DNA of 21,512 bases from a virus, in IMG/VR virus record IMGVR_UViG_3300050821_012676, positions 1 to 21,512 of that record. One strand, 5' to 3'. Under the pieces are notes generated by a model. It was not told the origin of the DNA. It searched no databases and worked only from the letters and a program-made list of their open reading frames with translations. Every line of letters starts with the position of its first letter. Position 1 is the first letter of the stretch. A program made the translations under genes and the position numbers. This document shows positions 5,837-15,878 of the stretch, piece by piece.

Positions 5837-8587
5837 ATGTCTTCTGTAGTATACGGTATCGGTGGTTTAATAAAAGTCGCTCCTCCAGCACTGACAGGAG
5901 GCGGCGCTCCTCCTGCTAGTTTCGCTGGAATATTAGGGCAGCAATATTTTGATACGTCCCAAAGTCCTTCGGTAGAATATATTTATAACGGTTCTACTTG
6001 GGTAGCAGGCGGAAATAACCCAGCTACTCCGACAGCTCCTGGGATTGTGACCTTGTCAACTTATGCTCAGTTGTCTAACGGTACATCTCCCTCAGGTGCA
6101 TACTCACCTCTTGCAAATGATGTATACACATATGTCAACTCCGTAGCGATTGGGGGATCTCCCGTTGCAACAACAGTAACTCAGGGTATCAGCTTCCTAG
6201 CCACAAACGCTCAAGCAGTGGCTGGCGTTGTATCTACAAACACAGCTTTGATCCCTTCTAACCTTCCTTCTGTATTCGCATCCCCTCCATCCATTGGAAG
6301 CACGCTGCCTGCTCCAGGATCCTTCACGACACTGGCAGCTTCTGGCTTATCATCTCTTAGTGGAAGTGCGACTATTCTTTCTGCTGGAACTGCGATAAAC
6401 ATCGGTAGTGATGCTTCTGCGGACGCAATAAATCTAGGAACTGGAGCAGCTGCAAGAACGATCACAGTGGGTAACGTGACGGGAGCGACTGGCCTTCTAT
6501 TCAAAACTGGCACAGGTAACTTCTCACTAGATGGTGTCGCTGGCTCAACATATACAGTTGGGGCGTCAACAACTACGGGCACAATGACAATCGGGGGAAC
6601 AGCACAAACTGGAACTATTACTCTGGGATCATCTTCAGGTACTAACATTGTGGCAATAGGTGCAGGAGCTGGAGCTACCACTGTTAATATTGCAGGTGGA
6701 ATAACTGGAAATACAGTGTCCATCGGTAACGGTGCAAATACTAGCTCTCAGGTAATCAACATTGCAGATGGCGCATCAGCAGCAAACAGTACAGTCAATA
6801 TCTTGTCAGGAAATGGAAGTGCTGGAACACAAACGCTGAACGTTCTTACTGGAACTAGAGCGGGTGCTCTTAACCTGGCTACTGGCGCAGCTGCTAACGT
6901 GACGATCATCGGGTCAACAACTGGCGCGGCATCAATCAGTATGCTTGTTGGGACTGGTAACTTTTCTCTGGATGGCGCGGCTACCTCAACATATGCAGTT
7001 GGGGCTTCTACGACTACTGGGACGATTACTATCGGTGGTACTGCACAGACTGGAAACTTGGTATTAGGTTCCTCTTCTGGAACGAACGCAGTTCTTATCA
7101 TGAACGGTTCTGGAGCAGGTACACTTAGCCTTGGCGTCGTACAAACAGCTGGTGCGATCAACATGGGTACAGCGATGACAACTGGTACAATTACAGTTGG
7201 CGGTACAGGTGCTCAGACTGGAATCATAGCTATTGCCCCAGGAACAGGTGCTCAAACGATCAATATCGGGCATTCTACAGGTGGTAAGACGATCAATATC
7301 GGAGACGGTGCTGGCGCAAACGTATTGGCAATCGGTTCAAATAACGGGGCTAGCTCTCTTGCTCTGAAGGTTGGAACAGGTAACTTCACATTAGATGGAA
7401 ACGCAGCATCAACATACGCAGTAGGAGCTTCTACTACCACAGGAACAATAACTATCGGTGGTACTGCTCAAACAGGAACCCTGACAGTTGGCTCATCCTC
7501 TGGTACTAATACCATAGCAATAGGCGCTGGAGCTGGTGCTACTGATCTTCAACTAGTGAATGCTCAGCTTGCGGGCTCATGTGAAATCGGTACGGCAATG
7601 ACAACAGGAACTATCCAAGTGGGTGGTACTGGAGGTCATACTGGAACAATGTCTATAGCTCCAGGTACTGGCGCTCAGACACTGAACATCGCAAACTCAA
7701 CAGGCGGTAAAACAGTCGCGATTGCAACAGGTGCGGGTGCGAACGTAGTTTCACTGGGATCCTCTAACGGCGCGAGCTCTCTGACGCTCAAAGCTGGTAC
7801 AGGTAACTTCAGCTTGGATGGTGCAGCAACTACTACCTATGCAGTTGGAGCCTCAACAACAACAGGAACAATCACCGTTGGAGGGACTGCACAAACTGGC
7901 ACACTCACCATAGGTTCCTCTTCAGGCACTAACATCATAGCAATAGGTGCTGGTTCTGGAGCCACTGACCTTCAGTTAGTCAACGTACAGACAGCAGGAT
8001 CTGTTGAGATGGGTACAGCGATGACAACTGGTACAATCCAAATCGGAGGTACTGGAGCTCACACAGGTACGATCTCAATTGCCCCAGGTACTGGAGCCCA
8101 AACTCTTGCAATAGCTAACTCAACTGGTGTTAAGACTATCAACTTTGCTACAGGGGCAGCTGCCAACGTTCTGACCATCGGATCTACAACAGCTTCTTGT
8201 GCAGTGACTCTGCAAGCTGGATCAGGCGCAACAGGGCTGAAGTTCTCATCTGCTGGTAACGTACAGATGGTTCCTGCGACATCAAGCACCGCTGCTGCAA
8301 CGACCTCTGTCACAATGAACAATAGGGTATGTTGCGCTACTTGGACAGGCTTCACAACAGGTGCTGCCTCTACTCTTGATTTGACGATCACAAACAGCAC
8401 GATCTTGACTACCTCATGCATCTTGGGAGCTGTGTCTAACCTGAACGCAAGCACAAACAATGCTCAGATGACATTGGTTGGCATGACTCAAGCTGCTGGT
8501 TCTGTGATCATGCACTTGAAGAACAACGGAGCTGGCGCACTGGGAGCTGGGGATAACATTCTAACAAATATCTGGGTTCTATCTTAA
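5837..8587 (+). CDS. Repetitive tail-fibre-type protein (916 aa)
   Basis: A strong GGAGGT precedes the ATG. Residues 25-70 carry a motif common at the N-terminus of uncultured phage fibres (GILGQQYFDTS, then EYIYNGSTW). Residues about 110-135 contain TVTQGISFLATNAQAVAG. From residue 225 to about 800 the protein consists of Gly/Thr/Ala/Ile repeats, with GTGNFSLDG at residues 225, 372, 513 and 654 and a partial fifth unit near 793. Each unit contains YAVGASTTTGTITIGGTAQ and GSSSGTN, giving a spacing of 141-147 residues. The last 90 residues differ and are probably the distal tip. The composition predicts an elongated beta-structured trimer. It heads the fibre operon and very likely contributes to host recognition. 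The family is recognised only in general terms. Confidence 0.8.
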   Translation: MSSVVYGIGGLIKVAPPALTGGGAPPASFAGILGQQYFDTSQSPSVEYIYNGSTWVAGGNNPATPTAPGIVTLSTYAQLSNGTSPSGAYSPLANDVYTYVNSVAIGGSPVATTVTQGISFLATNAQAVAGVVSTNTALIPSNLPSVFASPPSIGSTLPAPGSFTTLAASGLSSLSGSATILSAGTAINIGSDASADAINLGTGAAARTITVGNVTGATGLLFKTGTGNFSLDGVAGSTYTVGASTTTGTMTIGGTAQTGTITLGSSSGTNIVAIGAGAGATTVNIAGGITGNTVSIGNGANTSSQVINIADGASAANSTVNILSGNGSAGTQTLNVLTGTRAGALNLATGAAANVTIIGSTTGAASISMLVGTGNFSLDGAATSTYAVGASTTTGTITIGGTAQTGNLVLGSSSGTNAVLIMNGSGAGTLSLGVVQTAGAINMGTAMTTGTITVGGTGAQTGIIAIAPGTGAQTINIGHSTGGKTINIGDGAGANVLAIGSNNGASSLALKVGTGNFTLDGNAASTYAVGASTTTGTITIGGTAQTGTLTVGSSSGTNTIAIGAGAGATDLQLVNAQLAGSCEIGTAMTTGTIQVGGTGGHTGTMSIAPGTGAQTLNIANSTGGKTVAIATGAGANVVSLGSSNGASSLTLKAGTGNFSLDGAATTTYAVGASTTTGTITVGGTAQTGTLTIGSSSGTNIIAIGAGSGATDLQLVNVQTAGSVEMGTAMTTGTIQIGGTGAHTGTISIAPGTGAQTLAIANSTGVKTINFATGAAANVLTIGSTTASCAVTLQAGSGATGLKFSSAGNVQMVPATSSTAAATTSVTMNNRVCCATWTGFTTGAASTLDLTITNSTILTTSCILGAVSNLNASTNNAQMTLVGMTQAAGSVIMHLKNNGAGALGAGDNILTNIWVLS
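6509..8204 (+). repeat. Tandem coding repeats inside the 916-aa fibre gene
   Basis: Four units begin at 6509, 6950, 7373 and 7796, with spacings of 441, 423 and 423 bp, all multiples of three. The peptides are nearly identical in their central part, but the DNA differs at many third codon positions (for example, GGT ACT GCA versus GGA ACA GCA for the same residues). The duplications are therefore old and kept by selection on the protein, not recent copy errors. Confidence 0.85.
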
Positions 8588-14090: not shown

Positions 14091-15007
14091 ATGTCTAATG
14101 GTATATTCATTTTTCTAAATCTTGAATGTATTTTTTCTTTGAATCCAGGCTCTCCAACTTTGTAACTGTTTTCTCCATGAACCCTTGGAAATTCAACGTA
14201 ATCATGCCCTAAAATCATGTCACCCTTTGAGATAAGGTGTTTGTATGTCTTTAGCTTGTTAATCAATTCTAGGTCGGTTGTAACGCGAATTTTGGGCATC
14301 TTAGAGTTGTCTTCCCTTAACCATTTGCGTAAGACTGCTGCGTGACAAGAATATTGTTTAAATTTCTTTTCGTTGATGTCAGCATACTCATCCAACCGTT
14401 CCAACATGTCCGCCACCCTTTCCTTTCCAAAGTCTGACACTAGCTTCTCATGCTTATCAGATTTCATTTTGATGCGAGTCATTCCTGAGATCTTGGATTT
14501 GAATTTAAATTCAGACGAAGCGGACGGGCGTGGGGGGACAGGCGAAGCCTGGGGGCTTGCCCCCTCTCTCTCTTCTTCTTTAGTATATGGTTTAGTATCT
14601 GGTATTGGTGTTGCGTTTTCGCAATATCCATGTTGCGTTTTCGCAATCTCCATATTGCACTTTTGCAATATGTCTATGGAAGGTACGAATTTTTCCTCGT
14701 TAGAGAATGCATACCAAATCGTTCGATCGTAGTGTTTGACGTTGAAGTTAGCTTTCTTCAAAACTCCACGTTTAATTAATTTTGATATAATACGTAAAAC
14801 TTTAAACTTGTTGAGGTAGGGAAAGTTGGCGGCGATCTCATCCAATGTTTGGTAGGTCCAAGTTCTGCCGTCCAAAAAGTGTCGGTTAAGTTTTTTGTTT
14901 ATCCTGACCCAATGTTGGAAATGATGGATGATTATGGATTCTTCTATCCCGTACTCTGCTGCTAGGTGGATATCGAAGCTGTGGTGGTGAGAATATGTGA
15001 TTGTCAT
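14087..15007 (-). CDS. Replication initiator / replisome organiser (winged-helix N-terminus, 306 aa)
   Basis: Residues 1-105 resemble winged-helix replication proteins of phages and plasmids: FDIHLAAEYGIEESIIIHHF, then DGRTWTYQTLDEIAANFPYL, then RGVLKK and YDRTIWYA. Residues 110-170 form a variable linker (PDTKPYTKEE). Residues 180-250 carry a helical region ending in CHAAVLRKWLRED, like the C-terminal DnaD-type motif of replisome organisers. AGGA lies six bases before the ATG. Three DNA iterons lie within the linker-coding part (14609-14674), as the lambda origin lies within O. The protein probably binds these and recruits the host helicase, but the exact helicase partner is not visible. Confidence 0.75.
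   Translation of the reverse strand: MTITYSHHHSFDIHLAAEYGIEESIIIHHFQHWVRINKKLNRHFLDGRTWTYQTLDEIAANFPYLNKFKVLRIISKLIKRGVLKKANFNVKHYDRTIWYAFSNEEKFVPSIDILQKCNMEIAKTQHGYCENATPIPDTKPYTKEEEREGASPQASPVPPRPSASSEFKFKSKISGMTRIKMKSDKHEKLVSDFGKERVADMLERLDEYADINEKKFKQYSCHAAVLRKWLREDNSKMPKIRVTTDLELINKLKTYKHLISKGDMILGHDYVEFPRVHGENSYKVGEPGFKEKIHSRFRKMNIPLDI
14609..14674. repeat. Three tandem 22-bp iterons, candidate replication origin inside the initiator gene
   Basis: Units start at 14609, 14631 and 14653. The first two agree at 21 of 22 bases and the third is diverged. Each contains an inverted repeat, TTGCGTTTTCGCAA in units one and two and ATTGCACTTTTGCAAT in unit three. The spacing of 22 bp is about two helical turns, so bound proteins would face the same side. 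It is not a multiple of three, so each unit is read in a different frame and encodes a different peptide (LQKCN, IAKTQ, YCENA). Selection must therefore act on the DNA. A pyrimidine-rich and AT-rich stretch (14560-14608) lies beside it and may be the unwinding region. Confidence 0.75.
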
Positions 15008-15032: not shown

Positions 15033-15169
15033 CTGGGACCAACGTTAAACTTTCATTTTACTTTTTCTAAATGACTGAGAGTTGTACTATTTTGTCACTT
15101 TCTTTATACTTCCGGGAAGAAGTTAAGTTTTTGTAAAATGTGGGTTCATTGTTGGTCCCAGAGTTTTTT
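15033..15169 (+). ncRNA. Candidate structured non-coding RNA divergent from the initiator gene
   Basis: CTGGGACCAAC at 15033-15043 pairs perfectly with GTTGGTCCCAG at 15151-15161. Further in, CATTTTAC at 15054-15061 pairs perfectly with GTAAAATG at 15133-15140, with extra A-T and wobble pairs between, so the two stems nest. A local hairpin (ACTTC/GAAGT) sits near 15113-15128. TTTTTT follows the closing stem at 15164-15169. A possible promoter has TTGTCA at 15001 and TATTTT at 15025, which would place the start near 15035, at the first G of the stem. The region lacks any convincing gene. The opposite strand would be the 5' leader of the initiator, so a leader structure is the alternative. Confidence 0.5.
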
Positions 15170-15178
15170 AGTGGTTTA

Positions 15179-15210
15179 AGAGCGGTTGAAGAACCGCTCT
15201 CTTTTTTTTT
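15179..15210 (+). terminator. Intrinsic terminator
   Basis: AGAGCGGTT and AACCGCTCT form a perfect 9-bp stem with a GAAG tetraloop, followed by C and a run of nine T. It ends transcripts coming from the candidate RNA on the plus strand. If some pass through, they would reach the genes at 15273, so it could also serve as an attenuator. Confidence 0.85.
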
Positions 15211-15272: not shown

Positions 15273-15878
15273 ATGGGGAAAAAGGATTTCCAAGATATTG
15301 AGCCTCTGTGGTATTCTGCTATGAGAAGGGACAACAAACATAGGTCATTTTCGATGCAAATTAAACTGTTAAAGATTAGCGTCAGCATCAAAAAAATCGA
15401 TAGATTTTTCGTAGATTTTGAGTTTCCTGAGTTAAGGATAATCCTAAAAGGTATTCGCTATAACAGGAACACTCATAGAGCGTTTTTACCCTTCGTAGTC
15501 ACGGAAGATAAGGGGGTATATTCTCCTTTTTGCTTTATGGATTCTGAGACGATGAAGGAAGTTATCAGTACAATGTTGTCCCTCATAAAAGAAGAGAAGT
15601 TACCAGAGTTAACGGAAGGGCAGCGTGAGTACATTAAAAGAATTCGAGAAGAGGAAGTCCAGCGGCGAAAGCGAAAACTTCGAGGACATGTGGGAAGAGC
15701 ACCTTCAAAACCTAAAGAGGATAAAGGCGCTAATAAGGCATTACAGGCAAACAGCAAAAAAGAAACTCCCGCTACAGTACGGCCATGTCCAGATCCTAAG
15801 GGAGGTCGTGAAAATGCGTTTCTTAGCACCTTCGGAGCAGGGTTTACTGAAATACCTTTGCCAAGAAGAAAACCTTGA
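15273..15878 (+). CDS. Uncharacterised protein (201 aa)
   Basis: Residues about 30-105 look like a compact alpha/beta domain (SIKKIDRFFVDFEFPELRII, then FMDSETMKEVISTMLSLI). Residues 115-140 are a strongly basic helix. The last 60 residues are low in complexity (PSKPKEDKGANKALQ) and overlap a second gene in the +1 frame. The start is uncertain: the ATG at 15273 has only a weak ribosome binding site, and ATGs at 15321 and 15354 are alternatives. It lies beside the replication region, so an early DNA-metabolism role is possible, but the family is not recognised. Confidence 0.55.
   Translation: MGKKDFQDIEPLWYSAMRRDNKHRSFSMQIKLLKISVSIKKIDRFFVDFEFPELRIILKGIRYNRNTHRAFLPFVVTEDKGVYSPFCFMDSETMKEVISTMLSLIKEEKLPELTEGQREYIKRIREEEVQRRKRKLRGHVGRAPSKPKEDKGANKALQANSKKETPATVRPCPDPKGGRENAFLSTFGAGFTEIPLPRRKP

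Follow-up and report, generated by a model that had tools for sequence, protein, structure and literature searches.

Do the tandem dyad repeats found inside a phage replication initiator gene mark the origin of replication, and are they read by the protein that the same gene encodes? The window examined in this study is the whole of viral record IMGVR_UViG_3300050821_012676 (21,512 bp, classed linear), and the neighbours of the initiator gene encode a YqaJ-type exonuclease, an ERF annealing protein and a RusA resolvase, which fits a phage recombination/replication region. It is very likely that the repeat units and the segment adjoining them form the theta-type replication origin of this phage, located in the linker-coding part of the initiator gene. 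A scan of sequenced genomes recovered a single relative, from a Prevotellaceae metagenome assembly. One viral contig (L004, IMGVR_UViG_3300021420_000144) is 99.99% identical to the window across 7,473 bp and therefore gives no independent evidence. Elsewhere in the record, positions 15033-15161 and 15179-15208, between the initiator gene and a divergent gene at 15273, contain 29-nt inverted arms (CTGGGACCAAC...GTTGGTCCCAG) and then a strong terminator; the + strand of this region folds much better than shuffled sequences (z -4.4) and has no match in Rfam, and it is possibly a small RNA or the remnant of a mobile element. A 916-aa frame at 5837-8587 is built of repeated short Gly/Thr-rich blocks (TGTITIGGTAQTGT...) and probably encodes a fibre-like structural protein.

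The initial annotation had read the gene as encoding a winged-helix initiator, and this reading was supported by a profile match over the winged-helix domain to a phage replication initiation protein (PHROG 11233, E 1.5e-25, residues 7-116) and by the AlphaFold2 model, a confident winged helix in which a helix at residues 67-79 is followed by wing strands at residues 83-86 and 98-101 (Table 1). The pTM of the whole chain was 0.44, with pLDDT of 48-70 in the linker. DnaD-like and O-like profiles also matched, though more weakly; the DnaD-like and replisome-organizer matches extend into the C-terminal domain (residues 183-299), which is likely to be the helicase-recruiting part of the protein. 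The Pfam search of the initiator returned nothing useful, and comparison with solved structures by sequence gave no meaningful match.

Table 1. Features of the initiator gene and the proposed origin, in window coordinates.
Feature	Position	Strand	Sequence or basis
Replication initiator gene, 306 aa	14087..15007	minus	ORF; PHROG 11233 replication initiation protein, 1.5e-25
Winged-helix DNA-binding domain, residues 9-104	14696..14983	minus	AlphaFold2 pLDDT >90 over most; conserved in relatives
Predicted recognition helix, residues 67-79 (68, 71 and 72 covary with iteron arms)	14771..14809	minus	AlphaFold2 model, covariation
Iteron unit 1 in coding order	14651..14672	minus	CATATTGCAAAAGTGCAATATG
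Iteron unit 2 in coding order	14629..14650	minus	GAGATTGCGAAAACGCAACATG
Iteron unit 3 in coding order	14607..14628	minus	GATATTGCGAAAACGCAACACC
Conserved DNA word	14591..14608	minus	CCAATACCAGATACTAAA; kept at the DNA level and at fixed phase in relatives; ATACC begins 12 bp from last iteron centre
AT-rich stretch with second TACTAAA, purine-rich to its end	14566..14605	minus	67.5% AT; family AT profile
GC hairpin after AT-rich stretch	14551..14564	minus	GGGGGCAAGCCCCC; sequence
C-terminal helical domain, residues 183-299	14111..14461	minus	AlphaFold2 model

As had been proposed, three tandem 22-bp dyad units lie within the 306-aa initiator gene; they occupy 14607-14672 of the window. The + strand cores are TTGCGTTTTCGCAA (at both 14611-14624 and 14633-14646) and TTGCACTTTTGCAA (14655-14668), with a period of exactly 22, and these three are the sole matches to TTGCRNTTTNGCAA across the 21,512-bp record. 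On the coding strand the cores read, in order, TTGCAAAAGTGCAA, TTGCGAAAACGCAA and TTGCGAAAACGCAA. Unit 1 (14672-14651, coding strand) is CATATTGCA-AAAG-TGCAATATG, with perfect arms of 9 bp; compared to the other two units, its + strand core carries a paired, two-sided change that preserves the dyad. The core TTGCG-TTTT-CGCAA given in the initial annotation is thus correct for two copies, while the third is TTGCA-CTTT-TGCAA with the dyad kept. The units are read in frames 2, 0 and 1, yielding ILQKCN, IAKTQH and YCENAT, and the statement that one motif is read in three frames as three unrelated peptides is accordingly accurate. Arrays were scored as chains of dyad copies 16-30 bp apart, a score that also recovered the iterons of lambda as a positive control. 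The score of the window was matched by one of 2400 protein-preserving codon permutations and three of 2400 dinucleotide shuffles; however, these chance figures are lenient, since the score was designed after the array had been seen. For this reason relatives were examined, where recurrence of the array constitutes stronger evidence.

Viral contigs were scanned with winged-helix alignments and the relatives reduced to 138 distinct initiators, to which a later held-out set added 57 distinct genes (195 distinct related phage genes in total). The array score exceeded that of all 60 codon permutations in 66 of the 138 relatives, and no more than three of the 60 permutations reached it in 86 of the 138, where approximately 9 would be expected by chance; the array is therefore distinct on its own in 66-86 of the 138 relatives, some of which have two or fewer clear units. 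Measured from where the winged helix ends, the best array started at -30 to +120 nt in 110 of the 138 genes, compared to 30% of permuted genes. The most common spacing between units was 22 bp (116 of 188 steps), followed by 23 bp (39 of 188), then 21 bp (15 of 188). Among the held-out genes, 39 of 57 had a significant array and 47 of 57 had their best array within the linker. That the 22-bp dyad arrays of relatives exceed codon-permuted controls supports the earlier proposal that the repeat is kept as DNA rather than as peptide. The same controls bear on the possibility that the repeats arose as a by-product, either of the peptide they encode or of random tandem duplications that a tolerant linker would accept. 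Protein constraint in the linker is indeed low (pLDDT 48-70), but the three units occupy three frames, the arrays exceed protein-preserving codon permutations, the arms are dyadic and track the protein (see below), and the cross-phage tests contradict a by-product. This explanation is extremely unlikely, and for a peptide repeat as the cause, the three frames and the codon-permutation controls rule it out. As a separate observation, TTGCR-N4-YGCAA at 22 bp occurs twice in each of two contigs (L014 and L035): one copy lies in a winged-helix initiator gene, the other in a 109-aa frame without a clear match to that gene; the copy in the 109-aa frame is also present in L018, L025, L028, L032 and L047. 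These additional repeats are possibly a second or satellite set of iterons.

To compare units among phages, 151 units from 54 phages were aligned on the A-rich centre, which was picked by A content with the protein not consulted. Arm identity was 84% within a phage and 41% between phages, compared to 72% and 60% for the centre and 56% and 52% for the outer flanks. The consensus unit is CATT-arm-AAAN-arm-AATG, to which the units of the window conform. The initial annotation had taken absence or free divergence of the iterons in related phages as evidence against it; the arms do diverge freely, while array, spacing, centre and position are kept. Because these four properties persist and the arms track the protein, the divergence does not represent loss of the element.

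The tracking of the protein by the arms was evident from covariation in the 54 phages, where the top signals outside the iteron-encoded linker joined residue 68 to base -5 and residue 71 to base -6 of the half-site (covarying residues 118-125 were left out because they are encoded by the iterons themselves). At residue 68, K occurs with C, R with A, and D or E with G; at residue 71, R or K occurs with G and D or E with C; and at residue 72, R occurs with C and E, D or H with G. These pairings make sense chemically. The rules were fixed before new loci were fetched and were then applied to 32 phages less than 80% identical to any earlier sequence. The residue 68/base -5 rule was correct in 13 of 18 cases (4.4 expected) and the residue 71/base -6 rule in 16 of 23 (8.4 expected), each with a permutation p of 2e-4, the floor of the test, while the residue 72 rule was correct in 17 of 19 (14.2 expected, p=0.03). 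A further rule, relating residue 69 to base -3, failed in the held-out phages. To control for relatedness, 43 disjoint nearest-relative pairs were also compared. In these matched pairs, the joint change of residue 68 and base -5 was the best of 415 combinations (p=5.9e-5), and the residue 68 link thus survives control for relatedness; residue 71/base -6 was nominal (p=0.016), making this link probable. The joint test of residues 68 and 71 ranked 37th among all residue pairs and, not being outstanding, was not counted as evidence. In the window itself residues F68 and L71 are rare types and residue 72 is R with base C, so the code predicts the window's own arms at residue 72 only. The covariation and its held-out validation support the dimer contact on each dyad that had been predicted; at the computational level they argue strongly for an initiator that recognises, as a dimer, the iterons of its own gene.

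The covariation also bears on whether the units function as hairpins of mRNA or single-stranded DNA (stems TTGCG-AAAA-CGCAA), for example in translation, priming or packaging. The coding-strand RNA forms the three hairpins (fold energy z -2.67), but any perfect dyad would fold in this way, and a hairpin role predicts neither arm letters that follow helix residues nor a fixed 22-bp phase. It is therefore very unlikely that hairpins account for the units.

Beyond the array, CC(T/A)ATACCAGATA immediately follows the last unit, and (T/A)ATACCAGATA is common to the relatives. The word [AT]ATACCA was found in the linker of 134 of the 195 distinct genes, compared to 28.8 after codon permutation, and its density is 3.26 per kb in linkers but only 0.14 per kb in the rest of the genes. 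The word encodes P-I-P, with ATA as the Ile codon in 118 of 121 cases and CCA as the second Pro codon in 123 of 136 (each 34% elsewhere). Its position relative to the array is also fixed: of 53 even-centred arrays, 42 have ATACC at a distance of 12 bp from the centre of the last iteron, and in the window the distance is likewise 12 bp. In held-out phages with the word the distance was 12 (18 phages), 34 (5) or 56 (1), so that all 24 equal 12 + 22n; the word was missing in 8 held-out phages. Within the linkers of L127, L120, L134 and L138 the AT-rich word recurs in differing frames (AGATACTAAA is read as both PDTK and KILK in L127, and CAGATGGAAA is found in two frames in L120), which is direct evidence of selection at the DNA level. 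In the family, the 40 nt from the word onward are 70-77% AT, compared to a gene mean of 60%. By analogy with lambda and iteron plasmids, the AT-rich stretch of the window is likely to be an unwinding element; in iteron plasmids, Rep proteins bind one strand of single-stranded AT-rich repeats (PMC4081077). The recognition element of B. subtilis DnaD consists of pairs of TnnT (PMC10201434); considered as a possible meaning of the AT-rich word, TnnT was not enriched relative to codon permutation (z 0.6), whereas TACTA was (59 vs 21.5, z 9.4). A GC-rich hairpin similar to that at 14551-14564 of the window is found at the equivalent position in L005.

The word is of further relevance to the possibility that the units are operators for the initiator or another regulator, controlling expression or copy number, with replication starting elsewhere. 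Operators are also typically tandem dyads, and covariation shows only that protein binds DNA and not the consequence of binding. However, the units are located approximately 340 nt inside the gene and not at a promoter, and at fixed phase they adjoin a word that is rich in AT and conserved at the DNA level, for which an operator has no need. A role as operators instead of an origin is unlikely, although the units may serve jointly as origin and in autoregulation.

An origin in the linker-coding part of the gene thus remains the preferred reading. The array, its conservation at the DNA level, its spacing, the AT-rich word at fixed phase and the covariation of arm bases with residues 68 and 71 are computed results, from which we infer binding, melting, helicase loading and replication. 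On each 22-bp unit the N-terminal winged helix would bind as a dimer, each subunit using its recognition helix to read one arm across the A-rich, probably bent, centre. As 22 bp is about two helical turns, successive dimers would be placed on one face of the DNA and could build an O-some-like complex. The AT-rich stretch starting with ATACCAGATACTAAA, at fixed phase beside this complex, would then melt, and the C-terminal domain would bring the host helicase, either directly or via a loader. The concerted change of recognition helix and repeats in the ~195 related genes points to an arrangement like that of lambda, in which the recognition code can be partly read. In this large phage initiator family, origin and reader probably constitute one self-contained evolvable unit. 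A simple code would tie the arms to residues 68 and 71 (and probably 72), while three elements would stay fixed: the A-rich centre, the 22-bp phase and, at 12 bp from the last centre, the unwinding word ATACCAGATA. If this is true, new origin specificities can arise by mutations in one gene, and the cognate iteron can be predicted from the protein sequence.

From one gene, these findings allow a replication origin to be predicted in a wide range of uncultured phages, and they provide a partly validated code that ties initiator residues to origin letters. With this code, origin specificity and incompatibility between phages can be tested directly through paired changes of residue and base. In addition, the locus indicates that a coding sequence can hold a strictly spaced regulatory DNA array by using a tolerant protein linker. 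A published description of in-gene iterons with recognition-helix covariation in this initiator family was not found in a search made mostly outside the subscription literature, nor were the recognition code and the fixed-phase word found described in the literature searched.

The initial annotation held that the locus mirrors the O iterons of lambda; the anatomy matches, but no direct homology to lambda O was detected. In the lambda origin, dimeric O binds iterons that are bent at their centre; these lie midway through gene O, and an AT-rich tract comes after them (PMC7466680). The origins within gene O of lambda and the Stx phages P27 and 933W resemble the window in having tandem A-tract-centred dyad iterons in the middle of the initiator gene with an AT-rich tract after them (PMC7466680; lambda record), and both in-gene tandem dyad iterons and an AT-rich region adjoining the last iteron are present in the window. 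However, the lambda iterons are spaced at 20/24/23 with an odd centre (CCCTCAAAACGAGGG), compared to 22 with an even centre in the window. The initiator had no match to Phage_rep_O (PF04492) at E<=1, compared to 5.7e-36 for lambda O itself, and hhalign of the initiator alignment against lambda O gave a probability of 0.7%; this was a comparison with a single lambda O sequence, as the lambda O scan returned near-identical copies only and hence no diverse profile. PHROG 678 was matched by both the window initiator (1.5e-5) and lambda O (1.7e-35), which hints at a distant link between the two. RepA_N was not among the Pfam hits of the initiator at E<=1. Foldseek placed 4pql, which we take to be the N-terminal domain of a RepA_N protein, at rank 3 (E-value 0.044), a weak fold similarity.

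The initiators of Staphylococcus, Listeria, Lactobacillus and enteric phages (PHROG 6493, 428 and 11233) are clear winged-helix homologues (alignment A6 vs A4, probability 99.7, E 6e-27). Several of them likewise have in-gene dyad arrays with a spacing of 22-24 bp; in contrast to the window, these are mostly odd-centred 23-bp arrays, and the C-terminal domains differ. The oriV of repABC plasmids, located inside repC near a large A+T region (PMC3155836), also places the origin within the initiator gene, a likeness of principle only. In pSK41 Rep (319 aa), a plasmid protein, the N-terminal domain is a winged helix, the C-terminal domain has a recruiting role and the linker is encoded by the ori; the rep gene itself contains four Rep boxes, and an A+T tract bends the Rep box (PMC5703833). 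The window initiator shares with it the winged helix, the placement of boxes where its own gene encodes the linker, and a C-terminal domain, with binding and recruiting presumed here, while pSK41 is a plasmid and the window a phage. Since its anatomy matches that of both the lambda origin and pSK41 Rep, the arrangement is of a kind already known.
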